A stretch of DNA of 64,000 nucleotides from Crenalkalicoccus roseus (GTDB taxonomy: Bacteria; Pseudomonadota; Alphaproteobacteria; Acetobacterales; Acetobacteraceae): NCBI RefSeq assembly GCF_004761865.1, contig NZ_SJDM01000007.1, positions 1 to 64,000 on the forward strand, written 5' to 3'. Positions 5,150-17,691 of the stretch are shown one piece after another (within the stretch, counting starts at the first letter, position 1; every line of letters begins with the position of its first letter). Both the position numbers and the translations under genes were made by a program. The notes below the pieces were generated by a model. The model saw only the letters and a program-made list of their open reading frames with translations, was not told where the DNA came from and searched no databases.

Positions 5150-5749
5150 TCAGGCCCGACGCCCTCCCCTCCAGACCTTCCAGGCGATCAGGCTGAGCAC
5201 CACGGCCGTGACGGCGAGGCCGACCGGCCCGGCCCAGTGCTCCACCTTGTGGAATTGCTCCCCGAGCAGGTAGCCGGCGAGCGCCAGCCCCCCGGTCCAG
5301 ATCGAGGTGCCGAGCGCGGTCCAGAGGTAGAAGACGCGGCGCGGCAGCTCCACGAGACCCGCCGGGATGGAGACGGCGGTGCGCACTCCCGGCATGCAGC
5401 GCGCGATGAACACGGCGAAGGGGCCGTTGCGGCGCATCGTCGCCTCGGCCTGTGCCACCTTCCCCTCGGTCAGGCCGATCCACCGCCCGTGGCGCTTGAG
5501 GATGGCGCGGGTGCGGGCTGTGCCGTAGGCGCGCGCCAGCTCGAACCACACCGCATTGCCGGTGACCGAGCCCGCGATGCCGGCGAGGACCACGCCGAGG
5601 ATCGGCATCTTGCCCTGGGCGGCGGCGAAGCCGGCGAGCGGCATGATCGCCTCGGACGGCATGGGCGGGAACAGGTTCTCCGCCACCATCAGCAGGAACA
5701 CGCCGACCAGCCCGCCGGCGGCGATCAGGTCGGTCGCCCATTCCACCAT
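5150..5749 (-). CDS. DedA family inner-membrane protein
   Basis: 199 residues with four to five hydrophobic segments. The DedA/VTT pattern is visible: ENLFPPMPSEAIMPLAGF at residues about 24-41, the motif FIARCMPGVRTAVSIPAG around 113-130, and a conserved Gly-rich segment in between. DedA proteins act as undecaprenyl-phosphate or phospholipid flippases and affect membrane potential and antimicrobial-peptide resistance. It lies 24 bases downstream of the GT39-type glycosyltransferase on the same strand. Coupling of a lipid-phosphate-using glycosyltransferase to a possible polyprenyl-phosphate flippase is functionally sensible, but is inference. Confidence 0.9.
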   Translation of the reverse strand: MVEWATDLIAAGGLVGVFLLMVAENLFPPMPSEAIMPLAGFAAAQGKMPILGVVLAGIAGSVTGNAVWFELARAYGTARTRAILKRHGRWIGLTEGKVAQAEATMRRNGPFAVFIARCMPGVRTAVSIPAGLVELPRRVFYLWTALGTSIWTGGLALAGYLLGEQFHKVEHWAGPVGLAVTAVVLSLIAWKVWRGGRRA

Positions 5750-5773
5750 CCGATCCGCTCCCGCTTGCGCCGC

Positions 5774-7465
5774 TCAGCCCGGCGTCCTGTAGAGGACAAG
5801 CGTGACCCAGCGGCCACGCGAGTAGTTGAACCCCGCCACGGTGCCGATCTCCTCCGGGGCGAGGCCGCGCGCCGCGGCCTCCCGCCGGAAGTCGGCCTCC
5901 GCCCGGTCGCCCACCGCGGCGACGCGGCCGGGCGCGGCGGCGAGGAAACGCGCGGCGTCGGCGCCGGTGCGCAGCAGCGCCACCTCGCCCCCCACCGCGA
6001 ACAGCACCGAGGGTTCGTGATGGCCGGTGATGCCGAACTCCGCCGCGGCGAGGCCCGGCGCCCGCGCCTCCAGCGTCGCGGCGAGGCGCGGGGCGATCCA
6101 GAACGGGTCGAGGCGCGGCGCCACCCCCTCCAGCACCGTGGCGTAGAGCGGCGCCGCCAGCAGCGCCCCGAGCAGCCCGGCCCGGCCCCAGGCGCCGGCG
6201 CGCGCGGCGCGCAGCACCACCAGCACCAGCAGCGCGGCGAGGGGGATCGCCAGCAGGGCCGCCGTCGGCAGGTCGCGGCTGAGATAGAGGGGCAACGCCA
6301 GCGCCAGCAGGGCCAGCCCCGCCGCCACCCCGGCCAGCGCCACGACCGCCACCGCCCGCCACCAGCGGCGCGGCATGGACCGCAGCGGGTCCAGCGCCCA
6401 GGCGGCGCCGAGCAGCATCAGCGCCGGGAGCATCGGCAGGGTGTAGTGGGGCAGCTTGGTCTGCACCGCCTCGAACACCAGCCAGGAGGGCACGATCCAG
6501 GCCAGAAGGAAGCGCGTCGACGGGCGCATCCGGTCCCGCCAGGCGGCGGGCAGGGCCAGCAGCACGATCCAGGCGGCGGGGAAGGCGGCGATCGGGAAGG
6601 TGAGCAGGTAGTAGCCCGGCGGGCCCCAGTGGCTCTCCTCGCCCGAGCCGACCTTGGCGAGCATGTCGCCGCCCACCGCCTCGGCGAAGAAGCGCCCCTC
6701 GGTCGCGAGGCCGATGGCGACGAACCACGGCGCGGCGGCGGCGAGCATCAGCGGCAGCCCCCAGGCCGGGCGCAGCGCCCGCAGCCAGGGGGCGCGGCCG
6801 CGATCGGCCACCGCCAGCGTCACGGCGGCGAGCAGCGCCACCATCGGCCCGATCGGCCCCTTGAGCAGCACGGAGAGGCCGAGCACCAGCCAGAACGCCG
6901 CCGCCTGCCGCGCCGTGAGCGCCTCGGGGCGCAGATAGGCGAGGCCGAACAGGCCCATGGCGGCGACGACGCTCGCCAGCAGCGCCGCGTCGGTCTTGGC
7001 GATGTGCGCCTCCGCCACCAGCACGAGCGAGGAGGCGAGCATCGCCGCCCCCAGCAGCGCCGCCCGCCGCCCGACCAGGGCGCGGCCGAAATGGAAGGTG
7101 GCGAGCACGGCGAGCAGCGCGCCGCCGAGGCTTGGCAGGCGATAGACCCAGATGTCGGCCCGGTCGCCGAGCCCCGTCGCCTCCGCCGCGTGGACCGAGG
7201 CGGCCTGCAGCCAGTGGATGCCGGCGGGCTTCTTGTTCCGCTCCTCCTGCCCGAAGCGGATGCGGACATAGTCGCCGCTCTCCACCATCTGGCGGCTGGC
7301 CTGGGCGAAGCGGGCCTCGTCGCGGTCGGTGGCGGGCAGGGTGAAGAAGCCCGGCAGCCAGAGCAGCAGGCAGAGCAGCGCCAGCGCCAGCCGGGGCCGG
7401 CGCAGCAGCGGCTCGGGCACGGTGCCGAGCGAGCGGTCCGGGCCGGCGGGCGGGGCGATGTGCAT
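5774..7465 (-). CDS. Glycosyltransferase family 39 (ArnT/PMT-like) membrane protein
   Basis: 563 residues. An N-terminal PMT domain carries about ten or more transmembrane segments. The first periplasmic loop has the family's acidic motif within TLPATDRDEARFAQASRQM (residues about 45-63), and NKKPAGIHWLQ follows. Enzymes of this family transfer a sugar from a polyprenyl-phosphate donor to lipid A, protein or another acceptor on the periplasmic face; ArnT adds aminoarabinose. Which acceptor is used here cannot be told. It is followed by the DedA gene and preceded by the FkbM methyltransferase, a small cell-surface cluster. Confidence 0.87.
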   Translation of the reverse strand: MHIAPPAGPDRSLGTVPEPLLRRPRLALALLCLLLWLPGFFTLPATDRDEARFAQASRQMVESGDYVRIRFGQEERNKKPAGIHWLQAASVHAAEATGLGDRADIWVYRLPSLGGALLAVLATFHFGRALVGRRAALLGAAMLASSLVLVAEAHIAKTDAALLASVVAAMGLFGLAYLRPEALTARQAAAFWLVLGLSVLLKGPIGPMVALLAAVTLAVADRGRAPWLRALRPAWGLPLMLAAAAPWFVAIGLATEGRFFAEAVGGDMLAKVGSGEESHWGPPGYYLLTFPIAAFPAAWIVLLALPAAWRDRMRPSTRFLLAWIVPSWLVFEAVQTKLPHYTLPMLPALMLLGAAWALDPLRSMPRRWWRAVAVVALAGVAAGLALLALALPLYLSRDLPTAALLAIPLAALLVLVVLRAARAGAWGRAGLLGALLAAPLYATVLEGVAPRLDPFWIAPRLAATLEARAPGLAAAEFGITGHHEPSVLFAVGGEVALLRTGADAARFLAAAPGRVAAVGDRAEADFRREAAARGLAPEEIGTVAGFNYSRGRWVTLVLYRTPG

Positions 7466-8683: not shown

Positions 8684-9799
8684 ATGTCCGAGGAAGAGCC
8701 GATCCCGCCCGCCCACCCGGCGCCCTGGCCGGAACGGCCCGCCGCCGAGGCGGGCCTCGATCCCGACCGTCTGGCGGAGGCCGTGGCCTTCGCCGAGTCG
8801 CACGAGACCCCCTGGCCGCGCGACCTGCGCGCCCAGCTGGAGAACCGGCATTTCGAGCCGCCGCCGCACAACGCCATCATCGGCCCCGTGGCGCCGCGCG
8901 GCGGGCCGAACGGGCTGATCCTGCGCCACGGCCGCCTGGTCGCCCGCTGGGGCGACACGCGCCGGGTGGACATGACCTTCAGCGTCACGAAATCCTACCT
9001 GGCGATGCTGGCGGGCCTCGCCCTCGCCGACGGGCTGATCCCCGACCTCGACGCGCGCGTGGCGGAGACGGTGCAAGACGGCGGCTTCGAGGGGCCGCAG
9101 AACGGCGCCATCACCTGGCGGCACCTGCTGCAGAACACCTCCGAGTGGGAGGGCACGCTGTTCGGCAAGAGCGACGTCATCGACCGCGGCCGCGACCTGG
9201 CGCTGGAGGGGCGCGGGCCGAAGGGGTTCGAGCGGCCCCTGCGGCCGCCCGGCACCTACTGGGAGTACAACGACGTCCGGGTGAACCGCCTCTCCCTCGC
9301 CCTGCTGCGCCGCTTCGGCCGCGCGCTGCCGGAGGTGTTCGCGGAACGGATCATGCGCCCCATCGGCGCCTCCGCCGACTGGTCCTGGCATGGCTACGAG
9401 ACCTCCTGGGTCGAGGTGGAGGGGCGCCGGGTGCAGAGCGTCTCGGGCGGCGGCCACTGGGGCGGGGGCGTGTTCATCCACGCCGAGGACCAGGCGCGCC
9501 TCGGGCTGATGGCGCTGCGCGGCGGGCGCTGGGGGGAGCGGCGGATCCTGCCCGAGGGCTGGGTCGCCGCCTGCCGCACCCCCTGCGACCTCAACCCGCA
9601 TTACGGGCTGCTGTGGTGGCTGAACACCGGGCGGAGCAAGTGGCCCTCGGCCAGCGCCGCCTCGGCCTGCTTCGTCGGCGCCGGCGGCAACGTCACCTGG
9701 ATGGATCCGGAGCACGACCTGGTGGCGGTGGCGCGCTGGCTCGATCCCGCGCATCTCGACGGCTTCATGGCCAGGGTGACGGGCGCGGTCCGCGGCTGA
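8684..9799 (+). CDS. Serine hydrolase, beta-lactamase (class C / esterase) family
   Basis: 371 residues, no signal peptide, so probably cytoplasmic. The class C beta-lactamase/EstB fold is recognised from the SxxK nucleophile motif Ser100-Val-Thr-Lys103 (in MTFSVTKSYLAMLAGLA), the second motif around Tyr195 (EYND), and the glycine-rich GAGGN near residue 325. Members are esterases, D-aminopeptidases or transpeptidase relatives; true beta-lactamase activity is unlikely without export. It stands alone, divergent from the FkbM gene and convergent with the unknown-function gene that ends at 9832. Confidence 0.85.
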   Translation: MSEEEPIPPAHPAPWPERPAAEAGLDPDRLAEAVAFAESHETPWPRDLRAQLENRHFEPPPHNAIIGPVAPRGGPNGLILRHGRLVARWGDTRRVDMTFSVTKSYLAMLAGLALADGLIPDLDARVAETVQDGGFEGPQNGAITWRHLLQNTSEWEGTLFGKSDVIDRGRDLALEGRGPKGFERPLRPPGTYWEYNDVRVNRLSLALLRRFGRALPEVFAERIMRPIGASADWSWHGYETSWVEVEGRRVQSVSGGGHWGGGVFIHAEDQARLGLMALRGGRWGERRILPEGWVAACRTPCDLNPHYGLLWWLNTGRSKWPSASAASACFVGAGGNVTWMDPEHDLVAVARWLDPAHLDGFMARVTGAVRG

Positions 9800-9831: not shown

Positions 9832-11259
9832 CTATGCGGCGCGGCGGCTGGCCCCGGCCGCGGCCTCGAGGCCGTGGAACCGCACCTCCGGGAAGCGGTG
9901 GCCGTGACGGTCGAGGAAGTCGAGGAACCGCCCGATGCCGAGCGGACCCGGAATCGGGTAGCGCGCCGGCAGGCGCTCGAGCGCGTCGTGGAAGCGGGTC
10001 AGCACGGCGAAGTCGCGCGGATACTCCCGCTCGTCCACGCCGAGGAAGCGGCCGGCGCGCCGCGCATGGCCGAGGAGGCGCCGCCAGCGCCCGATCGGCG
10101 GCAGGCCGACGCACTCCACCCCGTGGGCGAACAGCGTCAGGTTGATCTCGTCGAAGGGCTCGGCGGCCCTCAGGTAGCGCTCCGCCGCCTCGGCCGAGGG
10201 CTCCATGTTGAACTTCATCCAGAAGGGCGCGCTGCCGGTGCGCAGCGCCAGCAGCGGGTCGAGCAGGATGAAGCTCTCGATCAGCAGCCGGCTGGCAGGG
10301 ATGCGCCGCTCCCGGTACCACCAGCGGTACAGCTCCGCAACCAGGGGGCTCGGATCCTCCGGCTCGTCGAAGACGATGCGCGCGACGCGGTAGCCGTGCG
10401 CGGCGGCGAAGCGCTCGATGTCCTCGCCGAGGCGCGGCTCGAAGCCCCATTCGGCCTCCGGCGCCTCCTCGGTCGGCGCCGGCGGATCCCAGCGGCGGCG
10501 GTGGGAGCCGTAGCGCGCGAGATACTCCTCGACGCGCGGGCCGCCGTGCAGGAACTCCTCCGGCGTCGCCCCGCCGAGGGCGCCGAACTGGAAGACGTGG
10601 CGGTCGGAGAGGCGGGTGACGGGGAAGCGCCGGCGGCAGTCGCTGACGATGATGGTCCCCCCCGGCGGCAGCACGCGCTGCAGGAACGCCTCGTAGGCGG
10701 GGCCGAGGCGCAGCCGCTTGACCCGGAAGTAGGTCATCAGGTGCAGCATCAGCCGGTCCTGGTTCGGGTCGTGCATGTGGTGGAGCTGCAGGTCCGGGTT
10801 GTGCGCCAGCAGCCGCCGCCCCGGCTCCAGCCCGCTCTCCAGCCCCTCTTTCGCGTCGTCCGGATGCACCTCCGTCTGCCGTACCGGGATGAACAGGGTC
10901 TGCGGCAGCCAGGGCAGGCCGAGGGCGCAGCAGAGATGCACCAGCGCCCCGCTCGCCGAGCCGACCACCACCGCCGGGTAGGGGCGCTGCGGGTAGAGCC
11001 CCGTCGCCCAGCGCGCCAGCGCCTCCGAATCCACGTTGTCGGTGTTGCGCTCGAGGATCGCCTCGCCGACGCCGCCGACGGCGTAGAGCGCCTCCCGCGC
11101 GCGCCGCGGCAGCAGGTTGGCGAGCGGCACCACGCGCTTGAGGGGGCGGGGCAGGCCGAGGGCGGGGATGTCCTTGCCCTTCAGGAAGCGCGCCGTGGCG
11201 CGCAGCATGGCGCTGCCGGAGTCGAAATTGGCGATGTAGCCGGGCGGCATCGGCCTCAT
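9832..11259 (-). CDS. Protein of unknown function, 475 aa, coupled to hydrolase and SDR
   Basis: I do not recognise a family. The protein has no signal peptide and no obvious membrane segment. Notable stretches are VVVGSASGALVHLCCALGLP (about 95-115, a Gly/Ser loop before a hydrophobic helix), LLAHNPDLQLHHMHDPNQDR (about 150-170), GGTIIVSDCRRRFPVTRLSD (about 200-220) and LGIGRFLDFLDRHGHRFPEV near the end. The central GGTIIVSDCRR after a conserved-looking strand is faintly like the strand-4 region of a Rossmann methyltransferase, but no SAM motif I is evident. The ATG at 11259 overlaps the TGA of the upstream hydrolase by four bases (ATGA), so the two are translationally coupled. Length and context suggest a cytoplasmic enzyme working with the SDR and the hydrolase. 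Confidence 0.7.
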   Translation of the reverse strand: MRPMPPGYIANFDSGSAMLRATARFLKGKDIPALGLPRPLKRVVPLANLLPRRAREALYAVGGVGEAILERNTDNVDSEALARWATGLYPQRPYPAVVVGSASGALVHLCCALGLPWLPQTLFIPVRQTEVHPDDAKEGLESGLEPGRRLLAHNPDLQLHHMHDPNQDRLMLHLMTYFRVKRLRLGPAYEAFLQRVLPPGGTIIVSDCRRRFPVTRLSDRHVFQFGALGGATPEEFLHGGPRVEEYLARYGSHRRRWDPPAPTEEAPEAEWGFEPRLGEDIERFAAAHGYRVARIVFDEPEDPSPLVAELYRWWYRERRIPASRLLIESFILLDPLLALRTGSAPFWMKFNMEPSAEAAERYLRAAEPFDEINLTLFAHGVECVGLPPIGRWRRLLGHARRAGRFLGVDEREYPRDFAVLTRFHDALERLPARYPIPGPLGIGRFLDFLDRHGHRFPEVRFHGLEAAAGASRRAA

Positions 11260-12083
11260 GCGGCTCTCCCCTGCGCTGCCCCGCCGGCGGCGGGCGGGAG
11301 GTCGAGAAGGAAGGCCCGCGCCACGCGCGCGAGCTCGAGGGCGCTGGCGGAAATCATCTGGTGCGCGGCGCCGGGGATGACGCGGCAGGCGCCGCGCGGC
11401 GCCGCCCGCGCCAGGCGCTCGCACCACCCGGGCGGGGCGATCGGGTCGCGCGAGCCGCCGACCACCAGCACCGGCACGGAGACGCCGAGGATCCGCTCCT
11501 CGATGCGGTGGCGGCGCATCTCGTTCTGGGTGAACCGGCCGCGGAAGGGGCTGGTGCGGAGCTGGTCGAGCAGGCCGGTGCGCCATTCCCGCGCCCAGTC
11601 CAGCAGGCCGCGGGCGGCGAGGCGCGGTCCGCTCTCGCGCAGCTCGGGCGGCGCGGTCGGTCCCTGCAGCACCAGGGCGCGGACCAGCTCCGGGTGGCGC
11701 AGCGCGCACTCCACGGCGATCTGGCAGCCGTAGGAGTTGCCGAGCAGCGCCGCCGGCGCCATGCCCTCCGCGCGCATCCAGGCGGCGAGCGCGTCGGCGA
11801 GGCCGCCCGTGTCCAGCGGCCGTTCCGGCGCGTCGGAGCGGCCGAAGCCCGGCAGGTCGGGGCAGGCGGCGGGGAAGTCGCGCCCCAGCCGCTCCAGCAG
11901 GGGCACGAAATAGAGGCTGGAGATGACGAGCCCCTGCGCCATCACCACCGGCACGCGCCCGGGCGGCGGCGCGCCCGCGGCGATGCGGGCGTGCATCCGC
12001 CATGGCCCCGCCTGCCGCCGGGCGCTGCGGAGCGGCACCAGCCGCTCCCGTCCCTTCGCCCGCCCGCCGAGCAGCGCCAGCAT
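11256..12083 (-). CDS. Alpha/beta hydrolase
   Basis: 275 residues from ATG at 12083, chosen because GAGGG precedes it 11-14 bases past the SDR stop; the longer upstream frame is low-complexity Arg/Ala. The alpha/beta hydrolase fold shows an oxyanion region VVMAQGLVISS (47-57), CPDLPGFGRSD (74-84), the nucleophile elbow GNSYG with Ser117, the acid in VGGSRDPIAPP and the His in GAAHQM. Substrate unknown. It sits in the middle of a three-gene set, SDR, hydrolase, unknown, with the last two overlapping by four bases. Confidence 0.85.
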   Translation of the reverse strand: MLALLGGRAKGRERLVPLRSARRQAGPWRMHARIAAGAPPPGRVPVVMAQGLVISSLYFVPLLERLGRDFPAACPDLPGFGRSDAPERPLDTGGLADALAAWMRAEGMAPAALLGNSYGCQIAVECALRHPELVRALVLQGPTAPPELRESGPRLAARGLLDWAREWRTGLLDQLRTSPFRGRFTQNEMRRHRIEERILGVSVPVLVVGGSRDPIAPPGWCERLARAAPRGACRVIPGAAHQMISASALELARVARAFLLDLPPAAGGAAQGRAA

Positions 12084-12094
12084 CGCCCGCGCCC

Positions 12095-13183
12095 TCAGTA
12101 GGGGAGCAGCCGGCCGGCCCAGGCGGCGCGCCGGCGCCAGGGCATTGCCCGCGCCAGCAGCCCCCGCGGGCGCCGGCGCGGCAGCCAGCCGCCCCGGTGC
12201 CCGCCGCCAGTGCCGAGGGCAAGGGCGAGGGGCACCGCCGCCAGCAGCAGCGCCGCCGCGCCGGCGAGCGCCGCCCCGCCGCCGCGCGGCGCGGTCTCGC
12301 GCGCCTGCCAGCCGCCGGTGATGCGGGCCCATTCGGGCATCGGCTCGAACAGGTTGCCGCGGGTCGGCGGCGCCGGCGTGTCGCCGAGGTGCTGGCTGTC
12401 CACGTTGCGCGCCATCACCGCGTCCACGGCGGCGGGCGCGAGGTGGCGGGCGGCGGCCATGACGCGGCCGGCGCGGCCGACGAAGACCTCGCGCCGCGGG
12501 TGGCGCACCAGGCCGAGGATCGCCGCCGCCACCTCGGTCGGCGGGATCACCGGCGGCATCGCCTTCACGGCGCGGCCGGTGTAGTTGGCCGCCTCCTGGA
12601 ACAGGGGCGTGTCTATGGTCGCCGGCAGGACGGTGCAGACATGGATGTGCCGCGCGTCGCGCAGCTCCTGCCGCCAGCAGTCGGACAGCGCGCGGATCGC
12701 CGCCTTCGAGGCGACGTAGGCGCTGGTGTAGGGCTGCGGCACATGGGCGACGATCGAGGAGAGGTTCACCAGGACGCCGTGCCCCTGCTCGCGGAAGAAG
12801 GGGATCACGCTGCGCGCGCCGTTCACCGTGCCGAGGATGTTGGTGCGGATCACCTCGTCATAGGCTTCCGGGGGCGTCTCCTCGACGCGGCCGAACAGGG
12901 TGACGGCGGCGTTGTTCACCCAGACGTCGATGCGGCCGAAATGGGCGATGGCCTTCTGCGCGAGGGCGCGGACCTCCGCCTCCTCCCGCACGTCGGTCGG
13001 CACCGCGAGCGCCCGGCCGCCGTCGCGGCGGCACTCCTCCGCCAGCAGCTCCAGCGCCTCCCGCCGGCGCGCGGCGAGCACGAGGGCGGCGCCCCTGCCG
13101 GCGAAGGCACGGGCGGTGGCGCGGCCGATGCCGCTCGACGCGCCGGTGATGACCACCACGCTGTCCCGGATGGATGGGCGCAT
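12095..13183 (-). CDS. SDR family oxidoreductase with hydrophobic, Arg-rich C-terminal extension
   Basis: 362 residues, about 100 longer than a classical short-chain dehydrogenase. NAD(P)-binding TGASSGIG is at residues 13-20, NNAA at 90-93, and the catalytic Ser142/143, Tyr156 and Lys160 lie in LSSIVAHVPQPYTSAYVASK. After the usual end there is a linker, then a hydrophobic segment (about 304-324) and a tail with many Arg and Trp. This suggests membrane tethering with the tail in the cytoplasm. Similar long SDRs act on lipid or aromatic substrates, but the substrate here is unknown. First gene of the set with the hydrolase and the unknown-function gene. Confidence 0.86.
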   Translation of the reverse strand: MRPSIRDSVVVITGASSGIGRATARAFAGRGAALVLAARRREALELLAEECRRDGGRALAVPTDVREEAEVRALAQKAIAHFGRIDVWVNNAAVTLFGRVEETPPEAYDEVIRTNILGTVNGARSVIPFFREQGHGVLVNLSSIVAHVPQPYTSAYVASKAAIRALSDCWRQELRDARHIHVCTVLPATIDTPLFQEAANYTGRAVKAMPPVIPPTEVAAAILGLVRHPRREVFVGRAGRVMAAARHLAPAAVDAVMARNVDSQHLGDTPAPPTRGNLFEPMPEWARITGGWQARETAPRGGGAALAGAAALLLAAVPLALALGTGGGHRGGWLPRRRPRGLLARAMPWRRRAAWAGRLLPY

Positions 13184-13325
13184 CGCCTCGGACCTCCTCT
13201 GCGGTGCGGGGCGCCGCCCGGGGATGCGCCCCGGCTGGGCGCGAGGGGCGCCGGTGGGCCATGAACCATGACAGGCGGTTCATGTTCCCTCGCGACTTGG
13301 TGGGGAGGGGGGTCCGCGGCTCCGC

Positions 13326-15552: not shown

Positions 15553-16485
15553 ATGGCGGCCGAGATCGACCAGGCGCTGGGCTTCGCGCCGGATTACGAC
15601 AGCCCGATCCCCTACATGCTGCGCACTCGGGAATATTACCGCGCCATCGGCTACGAGCCCTATCGCTGGGCCCATTACGTCGAGGTGCCGTTCCAGCCGC
15701 TGCGCAGGCCGCTCGCGGAAAGCCGCGTGGCGCTCATCACCACCGCCGCGCCCTACCAGCCGGACAAGGGCGACCAGGGGCCGGGCGCCCCCTACAACGC
15801 CGCCGCGAAGTTCTACCGGGTCTATTCTGGGGACACGGCGCAGGACCACGACCTGCGCATCTCCCACATCGCCTACGACCGCAAGCACACCACCGCCGAG
15901 GACCCGAACACCTGGTTCCCGCTGCCGGCGCTGCGGCGCATGGCCGCGGCGGGGCGGATCGGCGAGGTGGCGCTGCGCTTCCACGGCGCGCCGACCAACC
16001 GCAGCCACCGCCACACCCTGGCCGTGGACTGCCCCGAGATCCTGGCGCGGCTGCGCGAGGACGCCGCCGACGTGGCGGTGCTGGTGCCGAACTGCCCGGT
16101 CTGCCACCAGACCTGCAGCCTGGTCGCGCGGCACCTGGAGGCGAACGGCATCCCGACCGTGGTGATGGGCTGCGCCAAGGACATCGTCGAGCATTGCGGC
16201 GTGCCGCGCTTCCTGTTCAGCGACTTCCCGCTCGGCAACGGCGCCGGCCGCCCGCACGACCGGGAGAGCCAGGACCTGACGCTGGAACTCGCGCTGCGCG
16301 TGCTGGAGGCGGCGCCCGCGCCGCGCACCACCGTGCAGTCGCCGCTGCGCTGGGCGACGGACGGGCGGTGGAAGCTCGACTACCTGAACCTGGAACAGAT
16401 CCCGCCCCAGGAGCTCCAGCGCCTGCGCGAGGAGTTCAGCCGCCAGAAGGAGATCGCGCGCCGCCTCCGCGAGCAGGCCGCCTGA
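15553..16485 (+). CDS. Glycine/sarcosine/betaine reductase component B-like protein (GrdB/PrdB family)
   Basis: 310 residues. It resembles the selenoprotein B family of glycine, betaine and D-proline reductases: VALITTAAPYQPDKGDQG near 60-77, ISHIAYDRKHTTAEDPNTWF near 116-135, and LVPNCPVCHQTCSLVARHLE (177-196) followed by GIPTVVMGCAKDIVEHCGVP. In clostridial GrdB the active residue is a selenocysteine followed by GTC. By spacing to the conserved GIP, Cys181 of the CPVC here occupies that place, with Cys184 and Cys188 close by. So this is a cysteine form in what looks like an aerobe without the other Grd subunits. Its reaction is unknown; reductive C-N or C-X cleavage is a guess from the family. 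The CoA-transferase gene starts 3 bases after the stop. Confidence 0.75.
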   Translation: MAAEIDQALGFAPDYDSPIPYMLRTREYYRAIGYEPYRWAHYVEVPFQPLRRPLAESRVALITTAAPYQPDKGDQGPGAPYNAAAKFYRVYSGDTAQDHDLRISHIAYDRKHTTAEDPNTWFPLPALRRMAAAGRIGEVALRFHGAPTNRSHRHTLAVDCPEILARLREDAADVAVLVPNCPVCHQTCSLVARHLEANGIPTVVMGCAKDIVEHCGVPRFLFSDFPLGNGAGRPHDRESQDLTLELALRVLEAAPAPRTTVQSPLRWATDGRWKLDYLNLEQIPPQELQRLREEFSRQKEIARRLREQAA

Positions 16486-16488
16486 GCC

Positions 16489-17691
16489 ATGATGCCCGAC
16501 GCGCGGCCCTTCGAGGGGGTGCGGATCCTCGACTTCACCCAGGTCCTGGCCGGCCCCTTCGCCAGTTTCCAGCTTGCCCTGCTGGGCGCCGAGGTGGTGA
16601 AGGTGGAGCGGCGCGAGGGCGAGGAGATGCGGCGCTTCCCGCTCTCCCCCGAATGGACCGCGCGCGGCATGGCGCCGATGTGGATGGCCGCCAACGCCGG
16701 CAAGCGCAGCCTGACGCTCGACCTGCGGAGGCCCCAGGCGGTGGAGGTGGTGCGCCGCCTTGCCGCCGGGGCCGATGTGGTGATGGAGAATTTCCGCCCC
16801 GGCGTGATGGACCGCCTCGGCATCGGCCATGCGGCGCTCTCGGAGATCAATCCGAGGCTGATCTACTGCGCCATCTCCGGCTTCGGCCAGGATGGGCCGG
16901 ACCGGCTGGAGGCGGGCTATGACGGCCGCATCCAGGCGATGTCCGGCATCATGGCGATGACGGGCGAGCCGGGGGCGGGGCCGATGCGCGCCGGCTTCGC
17001 GGTGTGCGACCTGCTCACCGGCATGACGGCGGCCTATGCGGTGGCGGGCGCGCTGTTCCAGCGCACCCACACCGGCCGCGGGCAGTTCGTGGACGTCTCG
17101 ATGCTGGACTCCACCCTCTCCTTCCTGGGCGGCGCGGTGGCGGAGTGGACGGCGGCGGGACACGTGCAGGCGCAATGGGGCAACCAGGCGGTCAGCCGCT
17201 GCGCCACCGCCAACCTGTTCCGCGCCGGGGAGGGGCACCTCCTGCTCGCCGTGAACGCGGAGAAGCACTATCGCCTGCTGTTCCAGGCGCTCGGCCGCGA
17301 GGAGGTGCTGGCCGACCCGCGCTTCGCCGACTGGACCTTGCGCTACGAGAACCGCGAGGCGCTGCGCGCCATCATCGAGGAGGCGCTGGCCGATGCCGAC
17401 GCCGCCACCTGGGAGCGGCGCCTGACCGGGGCGGGCGTGCCCTGCGCCTGCGTCCGCCGCGTGGACGAGGCGATCGCGCACCGCCAGGTCGAGGCGCGCG
17501 GCCTGCTGCAGGAGGTGGAGACGGCGTGGGGTCCGCTCCGCCTCGCCACCAGCGGCTTCCGCCTGGCGCATGGGGGTGCCCGCCTCGACCGGCCGCCGCC
17601 CGCCCTGGGCGAGCATACGGAGGAGATCCTCGCCGAGGCCGGCTATACGGCGGAGGAGATCGCGCGGCTGCGCGCCGAGGCGGCGATCTGA
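16489..17691 (+). CDS. CaiB/BaiF family CoA transferase
   Basis: 400 residues of a class III CoA transferase. It shows GVRILDFTQVLAGPFASFQL at the start, NAGKRSLTLDL near 70, VMENFRPGVMDRLGI, NPRLIYCAISGFGQDGP, and YDGRIQAMSG with the catalytic Asp at residue 145. The enzyme moves CoA between carboxylates such as formate, oxalate, succinate or carnitine without free energy input. It is the second gene of the GrdB-like operon and probably activates or recycles the acid handled by that pathway. The substrate is unknown. Confidence 0.9.
   Translation: MMPDARPFEGVRILDFTQVLAGPFASFQLALLGAEVVKVERREGEEMRRFPLSPEWTARGMAPMWMAANAGKRSLTLDLRRPQAVEVVRRLAAGADVVMENFRPGVMDRLGIGHAALSEINPRLIYCAISGFGQDGPDRLEAGYDGRIQAMSGIMAMTGEPGAGPMRAGFAVCDLLTGMTAAYAVAGALFQRTHTGRGQFVDVSMLDSTLSFLGGAVAEWTAAGHVQAQWGNQAVSRCATANLFRAGEGHLLLAVNAEKHYRLLFQALGREEVLADPRFADWTLRYENREALRAIIEEALADADAATWERRLTGAGVPCACVRRVDEAIAHRQVEARGLLQEVETAWGPLRLATSGFRLAHGGARLDRPPPALGEHTEEILAEAGYTAEEIARLRAEAAI

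Follow-up and report, generated by a model that had tools for sequence, protein, structure and literature searches.

A stretch of 64,000 nucleotides from Crenalkalicoccus roseus (contig NZ_SJDM01000007.1, positions 1 to 64,000; this whole stretch is hereafter called the window) carries a minus-strand cassette of three genes, which encode a short-chain dehydrogenase/reductase (SDR), an alpha/beta-hydrolase (ABH), and a 475-aa protein, here named UNK, that is unclassified across all libraries searched. With moderate confidence, we interpret this cassette as a mobile accessory pathway that is induced by stress: ABH and UNK would work on a hydrophobic substrate as a single unit, and the redox chemistry would fall to an SDR tethered to the membrane. 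In the sequences and models compared here, this interpretation draws on a recurring gene order, on the coupling and occasional fusion of ABH and UNK, on the co-variation of UNK with its partners, on conserved polar residues at strand ends, and on a promoter motif upstream of the operon.

The SDR gene (13183-12095, minus strand, 362 aa) comes first, followed by ABH (12083-11256, minus strand, 275 aa) and then by UNK (11259-9832, minus strand, 475 aa), which is an alpha/beta protein. Eleven bases (12084-12094) separate SDR from ABH, and ABH and UNK overlap by the four bases ATGA; an earlier note on this DNA had described three co-directional genes with just this gap and overlap, and its coordinates and lengths proved exact on rechecking. 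A ribosome-binding-site-like AGGAGG (13193..13198, minus strand) is found 9 nt before the SDR start, and a motif of the EcfG promoter type, GGAAC-N17-GTT (13288-13264, minus strand), lies 80 nt upstream of that start; the earlier note does not mention this motif.

Because the same gene order recurs in other phyla, the arrangement is more than chance. Scanning genome contigs yielded 89 confirmed UNK stretches, 80 of which were kept (L002-L081; 39-62% identity), and at 52 of the 81 loci with at least 1 kb of upstream sequence, ABH lies on the same strand and ends within 400 nt upstream of UNK. Four more loci, in Micromonospora, carry ABH upstream in the other orientation, and at another four it sits just downstream of UNK. 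The overlap is exactly four bases at 27 of the 51 loci where the junction was measured, with an overlap of any length at 33 of the 51 (at L024 and L035, this measurement concerns a second, separate hydrolase). ABH and UNK are fused in frame, with no stop between them, at L024 and L035 (Pseudonocardia) and at L027 (Methylococcaceae), where the fusion itself overlaps an SDR; since these bacteria are far apart, the fusion must have arisen at least twice or been transferred. An SDR of at least 43% identity is found upstream on the same strand at 21 loci in all, and within 1.5 kb at 19 of the 77 loci with at least 3 kb upstream, sometimes with ABH between and sometimes directly adjoining UNK. One Nocardiopsis genome with an ABH-UNK pair (L047) has a second copy of UNK with an SDR directly upstream, one stop being counted in the matched stretch. 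Distances between UNK sequences correlate with those between ABH (r 0.685, n 49) and between SDR sequences (r 0.681, n 22), values that none of 2000 permutations reached and to which shared species history contributes. The neighborhood is thus conserved in the counts given above, a point that the earlier note had proposed to check.

Regulation provides a second line of evidence. We found no sigma-70-like promoter near the operon, and the GGAAC-N17-GTT motif has the form GGAAC-N16/17-GTT in which EcfG sites are listed in a Sphingomonas melonis table (PMC6599016). The window holds two matches to the motif where 0.43 are expected. Across the cassettes, 4 of the 7 loci taken as alphaproteobacterial (the window, L002, L005, and L038) have the motif in the 200 nt that precede the first gene, as against 0 of 77 other loci, with 3 of the 87 sequences dropped for short upstream sequence and 0.018 matches expected per locus; at face value, 4 of 7 would arise by chance about 3 times in a million, and 3 of 6, with the window set aside, 1 time in 10,000. 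We take L002, L005, L038, L078, and L085 to be alphaproteobacterial from their titles and from general knowledge of the genera and families. In the EcfG system, the usual order is an extracytoplasmic function (ECF) sigma factor followed by NepR, and in the genome of the window, an open reading frame (ORF) carrying Sigma70_r2 and Sigma70_r4_2 domains is immediately followed by an 87-aa NepR-like ORF. General-stress regulation, as suggested by these sequences, is a stronger theme than the modification of a lipid or hydrophobic compound that the earlier note had suggested, and one that it did not foresee; in the 25 commonest Pfam families listed for each side, which cover 126 flanking proteins, there was no conspicuous lipid gene that recurred.

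UNK itself has no family in Pfam or NCBIfam (E ≤ 1), PHROGs (E ≤ 10), or PADLOC (E ≤ 0.01), and no PDB chain was matched at E ≤ 10 by phmmer, with a best E of 0.29 by profile. When 55 members of the family were scanned singly, only scattered weak matches appeared, including one member to PF01048 (E 1.7e-6) and two to NF007550 (best E 1.5e-4), and we reject membership in a known family, as neither the libraries, the PDB, nor the member-by-member scans gave a match of curated level. The earlier note had recognized no family for this protein and had proposed a profile search, and that search likewise returned no strong match to any known family. Neither the UNK motif strings nor the SDR model names occur in any paper of the open-licence literature searched, and a keyword search there gave nothing relevant. 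For a protein of about 465 residues that is roughly 40-60% identical among cyanobacteria, actinomycetes, Chloroflexi, and proteobacteria, a name would be expected, and none exists in the libraries searched.

Although unnamed, UNK is strongly conserved. The alignment of 54 relatives and the window, picked for spread and unbroken frame, has 31 invariant columns, and its conserved motifs are FDS, GSSNGA(L)xH, PWLPQT, HHMHDPNQDR, YFRVK, FQFGAxGG, EAEWGFEP, PFWxxF, and LFxHG. In the window, FDS (residues 12-14; 11218..11226, minus strand, as are those that follow) is invariant across the 55 aligned sequences; the glycine-rich loop GSASGA (residues 100-105; 10945..10962), with the family consensus GSSNGA, has G100, G104, and A105 invariant; HHMHDPNQDR (residues 160-169; 10753..10782) has H160, D164, and D168 invariant; and EAEWG (residues 268-272; 10444..10458) has E268, E270, W271, and G272 invariant. 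The Gly-, His-, and Asp-containing loops that had looked conserved in the single sequence are among the most conserved columns of this alignment. AlphaFold2 run on the alignment gave a confident UNK model, with a predicted local distance difference test (pLDDT) score of 95.0 and a predicted template modeling (pTM) score of 0.94, and Foldseek matched this model to nothing in the PDB or the viral fold libraries at E ≤ 0.001. Of the 23 polar columns that are at least 95% conserved, 13 lie at the C-terminal ends of strands, compared with 53 of 208 polar residues overall, an enrichment equaled in 8 of 10,000 random draws. Alpha/beta enzymes usually hold their active sites at the C-terminal ends of strands, and because its conserved polar residues sit there, we infer that UNK is probably an enzyme, in keeping with the earlier description of a folded, enzyme-like protein and with the structure prediction that it had proposed.

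What kind of enzyme this may be is addressed in part by the C-terminal domain (residues 298-440; 9940..10368, minus strand), which has alternating helices and strands and is predicted to fold alone (pLDDT 93.9). Taken singly, this domain looks like a common flavodoxin-like domain in prediction, with no Foldseek match at E ≤ 0.001; a second structure aligner lists SGNH hydrolases and other alpha/beta folds for it, with a best Z of 6.4. UNK could be a hydrolase or acyltransferase of SGNH-like or flavodoxin-like type that has diverged very far, with Ser14 of the FDS motif or Ser329 as nucleophile, so that two hydrolases work in series. The domain does weakly resemble SGNH and PAF-acetylhydrolase structures (4h08, Z 6.4; 1wab, Z 5.3), 3 of the 55 members touch the Pfam Esterase family PF00756 (best E 0.0094), S14 is invariant, and S329 is at least 90% conserved. 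However, such Z values are background for this aligner, Foldseek adds nothing, and S14 lies outside the SGNH-like domain, elsewhere in the chain, all of which leaves this explanation distinctly improbable.

For the whole UNK model, the same aligner listed four structures, 5j72 (Z 10.1, 208 residues, 3.7 Å), 5j6q (9.3), 7acy (9.2), and 8bby (8.3), all of them Clostridioides difficile CWB2 surface proteins, with the next entry at Z 3.2. These are the only structures above background, and they raise a different explanation, namely that UNK is a cytosolic, non-enzymatic binder or scaffold, CWB2-like and built of several lobes, on which a substrate or carrier would be held for ABH just as an anionic polymer is held by CWB2 modules in clostridial surface proteins. 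In CWB2 triplets, modules of the toprim fold are arranged as a trefoil, which binds PSII (PMC5842191). When 21 CWB2 modules, drawn from 7 proteins in non-clostridial records, were compared by hhalign with UNK as a whole and in three slices (set by eye from DSSP), the best probability was 1.4%, and PF04122 is outside the 7 families matched by any of the 55 members at E ≤ 0.1; homology to CWB2 is unsupported by these profiles. The C-terminal domain alone returned the SGNH hydrolases and other alpha/beta folds given above and left CWB2 entries unlisted, which, by the aligner's own note, is not evidence against that fold. Internal repeats were also sought and rejected, as self-comparison of the alignment gave only the trivial self-match and the three slices share only overlapping residues. 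We judge 23 near-invariant polar residues to be many for a scaffold, and overall consider a binding role unlikely. The arrangement of the whole protein is unmatched in these searches, and the CWB2-like appearance of the model is no more than suggestive.

ABH belongs to the alpha/beta-hydrolase fold (PF00561, E 3.9e-22; 79.5 bits against a cut-off of 25.8), with the triad S117, D213, and H241. It falls far under the cut-offs of all of the best 25 of the 27 NCBIfam models that it matched, and its substrate therefore is not readable from its family. The triad is conserved across the cassettes (S117 in 48, D213 in 51, and H241 in 50 of 52 sequences), with glycine at the nucleophile position of L058 and L068, alanine in that of L087, and gaps accounting for the other misses. 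L058, L068, and L087 belong to the Pantoea clade; in these three cassettes ABH has perhaps become a non-hydrolytic partner of UNK, or the alignment has slipped. The genome of the window has one close ABH paralogue (L132, match 5673-4942; 46% identity); this paralogue is hydrophobic over an N-terminal stretch, and the 8 kb fetched with it contain neither a UNK nor an SDR match. PADLOC returned only a 16.3-bit TAP-like match of ABH, and a role in anti-phage defense was rejected.

The SDR is better placed. Members of its superfamily are marked by a TGxxxGxG cofactor motif and by N-S-Y-K catalytic residues, and the window SDR, which is of the PRK06139/PRK07109 kind, has TGASSGIG together with N115, S143, Y156, and K160; the last three are present in 22 of 22 cassette SDRs, and N115 in 21 of 22. 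It passes the cut-offs of NF004792 (324.2 bits against 308) and NF005495 (283.9 against 264). A C-terminal hydrophobic segment of 19 residues (305-323; 12215..12271, minus strand; mean Kyte-Doolittle 2.37) is a probable membrane anchor and is followed by an Arg-rich end. The earlier note had called this tail unusual; the tail is indeed present, but it is common among cassette SDRs, as 14 of the 21 scored (the window included) have a mean of at least 1.2 over 19 residues, with L016 outside the scored set. L002 is a borderline case (1.09), and each of the 6 cyanobacterial SDRs in the scored set lacks the membrane tail, which is thus not essential.

UNK is both rare and widely scattered. It was found in 1 of 60 relatives, in 2 of 397 genomes of the same family, and in 2 of 398 of the same phylum, with the genome of the window counted in each, and a profile search for distant relatives in 289 genomes of the class found none that was convincing (best other E 0.0023, with stops inside). 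By tree groups and record titles, its relatives nonetheless span nine phyla: Pseudomonadota, Actinomycetota, Cyanobacteriota, Chloroflexota, Thermomicrobiota, Myxococcota, Gemmatimonadota, Bacteroidota, and one bin titled Nitrospirae. In a tree of 84 sequences (3 of 87 were left out for length), the window groups with Telmatospirillum, two Gemmatimonadota, and Nitrosospira (100/96), and the only other UNK carrier found in its family, L082, sits in a separate proteobacterial clade. Phylum labels change 14 times on this tree, where the minimum is 7 and shuffled labels give a mean of 35.3. The tree placement and these label changes suggest that UNK has moved between phyla, though metagenome bins may hold foreign contigs. 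G+C content gives no sign of recent transfer, with UNK at 73.5% and the window at 73.4%. UNK occurs in 5 of 72,556 plasmid records, 3 of them typed conjugative, and in 0 of 50,697 phage records at E ≤ 1; with no phage-record match and nothing in the viral fold library at E ≤ 0.001, a phage origin was rejected.

Some observations on the carriers deserve mention in their own right. Eight of the 80 relatives (L003, L004, L007, L008, L016, L017, L019, and L022) have "CSSed" in their isolate names, which apparently points to a single sediment metagenome, and names such as alkaliphila and Halosaccharopolyspora occur among the other hosts. A link between UNK and saline-alkaline habitats is possible, and sampling bias may contribute to it. 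The UNK frame is split or shortened in L066, L078, and L079, through either decay or sequencing error. A strongly diverged second copy in Micromonospora (L131, G811:C55:55000-67000, positions 5219-6532; about 30% identity), with no ABH or SDR match within the fetched 12 kb, possibly belongs to a sub-family with another role.

Several findings weigh against the interpretation of the cassette as a stress-induced unit. By tblastn, 13 of the 77 loci with at least 3 kb upstream have neither ABH nor an SDR of at least 43% identity upstream; ABH is nevertheless present in three of these (L026 and L038, just downstream, and L081, directly upstream by ORF clustering), and 10 remain without a partner. 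In three of the 52 ABH sequences, a different residue is aligned at the nucleophile position, and unless this is an alignment fault, some cassettes may do without hydrolysis. The commonest families of the 126 flanking proteins include no recurrent third partner that would name the substrate. As to the promoter, 9 of 100 shuffles of the window had two or more matches; only eight bases of the motif are fixed, and it had already been seen in the window when the other loci were tested. It is missing at L078, L082, and L085, where L082 is taken as alphaproteobacterial by assumption, from its tree neighbors, and where the scan of L085 covered the stretch before UNK and not that before its cytochrome P450; several EcfG-type motifs lie on the L085 stretch. 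The NepR-like ORF scores 22.8 bits, under the Pfam cut-off of 25.7, and the motif-bearing L005 genome gave no NepR match. Finally, at L085, a Rhizobium leguminosarum plasmid, the P450 replaces ABH.

This P450 gene (L085:10628-12007; PF00067, E 1.4e-16) precedes UNK with the same 4-base overlap, and the record's own P450 gene starts at 11081. SDRs, alpha/beta-hydrolases, and P450s are typical of catabolic routes, and the cassette could be a catabolic or detoxifying route for an outside compound, in which ABH opens an ester or lactone, the SDR reduces an aldehyde or ketone, and UNK is one more degradative enzyme. The enzyme types, the sparse and scattered distribution with its conjugative plasmids, and a CMD-family gene upstream of the operon in the window all fit such a route. 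Yet no transporter, regulator, or ring-cleavage family stood out among the commonest families in the neighborhood, the highest counts among the 66 downstream proteins being two each for MFS, GntR/FCD, and sigma-type proteins, along with a generic ABC-transporter cluster in 11 of 87 sequences, and the inducer that the promoter motif suggests is general stress rather than a substrate. We regard a catabolic role as improbable.

Of the 175 flanking ORFs of up to 800 aa, which come from 48 of the 87 sequences, these neighborhood tallies cover 126 (66 downstream and 60 upstream), with 49 omitted because they were small or overlapping or to keep the set short; 20 of those tallied were also examined singly. 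The ORFs come from a crude, home-made gene finder, and some may be spurious. ORF clustering over the 87 sequences (86 relatives and the first 25 kb of the window) gave no recurrent fourth gene, a candidate rejected because the clusters other than UNK, ABH, and SDR were mostly shadow ORFs of these three genes and lineage-bound sets, apart from the one ABC-transporter cluster. Single stress-type genes do flank some copies (a YflT-domain protein in Anabaena, an AidB-type protein, and an erythromycin-esterase protein), and Hsp20, YsnF, and general stress proteins lie near plasmid copies.

Returning to the accessory pathway that we favor, SDR-ABH-UNK would constitute a portable operon. Because they are translationally coupled and in some bacteria fused, ABH and UNK, the latter taken to be a soluble protein, most likely form a complex in which an intermediate would be passed between the two active sites. 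A hydrophobic carbonyl or alcohol would undergo the redox step at the SDR, which a C-terminal helix usually tethers to the membrane. The operon is most likely switched on in alphaproteobacteria by EcfG, the general-stress sigma factor, and under such control the product, or the removal of the substrate, should aid survival in osmotic, oxidative, or drying stress. We infer the catalytic activity of UNK, the hydrophobic nature of the substrate, and the benefit under stress from the patterns described above. A bolder version is also conceivable, in which UNK founds a new enzyme class built from a new combination of flavodoxin-like lobes and catalyzes an unrecorded reaction in tandem with the hydrolase, so that the cassette makes an unseen stress metabolite or membrane lipid, traded between phyla and EcfG-controlled in alphaproteobacteria. 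A new enzyme class is possible, and this fuller version as a whole is doubtful; as the domain that was tested alone looks like an ordinary flavodoxin-like domain and the partners are ordinary enzymes, we keep the system with known kinds. In practical terms, the fusions and overlaps show which partner UNK should be purified with, and the stress-type promoter shows when its product should be sought. If that product is a protective lipid or small molecule, the cassette would represent a stress trait common to unrelated soil, saline, and desert bacteria.

Other genes in the window may also repay attention. A beta-lactamase-fold serine hydrolase (8684-9799, plus strand) faces UNK, with 32 bases between the stop ends, and had no tblastn match beside UNK at other loci. 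A 310-aa protein (15553-16485, plus strand) has a weak match to glycine-reductase selenoprotein B-like proteins (PF07355, 24.9 bits, cut-off 22), carries CPVCHQTC, and lies directly before a class III CoA-transferase gene (16489-17691); these features suggest a small metabolic cluster that includes an unusual gene for thiol chemistry.

Compared with known systems, the cassette combines familiar and unfamiliar elements. SGNH hydrolases have a GDS block near the N-terminus, where UNK has FDS instead, and the best Z of UNK to such a structure is 6.4, for its C-terminal domain only. The CWB2 (PF04122) triplets of the C. difficile proteins Cwp6, Cwp8, and SlpA superpose on the UNK model over 205-209 residues at 3.5-3.7 Å; the likeness is in predicted structure only, without profile similarity, and unlike these surface proteins, UNK sits in an enzyme operon and has no signal peptide apparent by eye. 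The window SDR is above both cut-offs of the PRK06139/PRK07109 group (NF004792 and NF005495), whose NCBIfam names give no function and no UNK-like partner. ABH shares its fold and S-D-H triad with alpha/beta-hydrolases in general, the nearest PDB sequence being 4g5x (phmmer E 6.1e-13, residues 30-148), and differs from these relatives in conserved positions of its own, such as Q121, T143, R149, and E166. Lastly, the cassette motif, found only at loci taken as alphaproteobacterial, lies at a distance from the first gene that is within the range of the S. melonis EcfG regulon table (PMC6599016).

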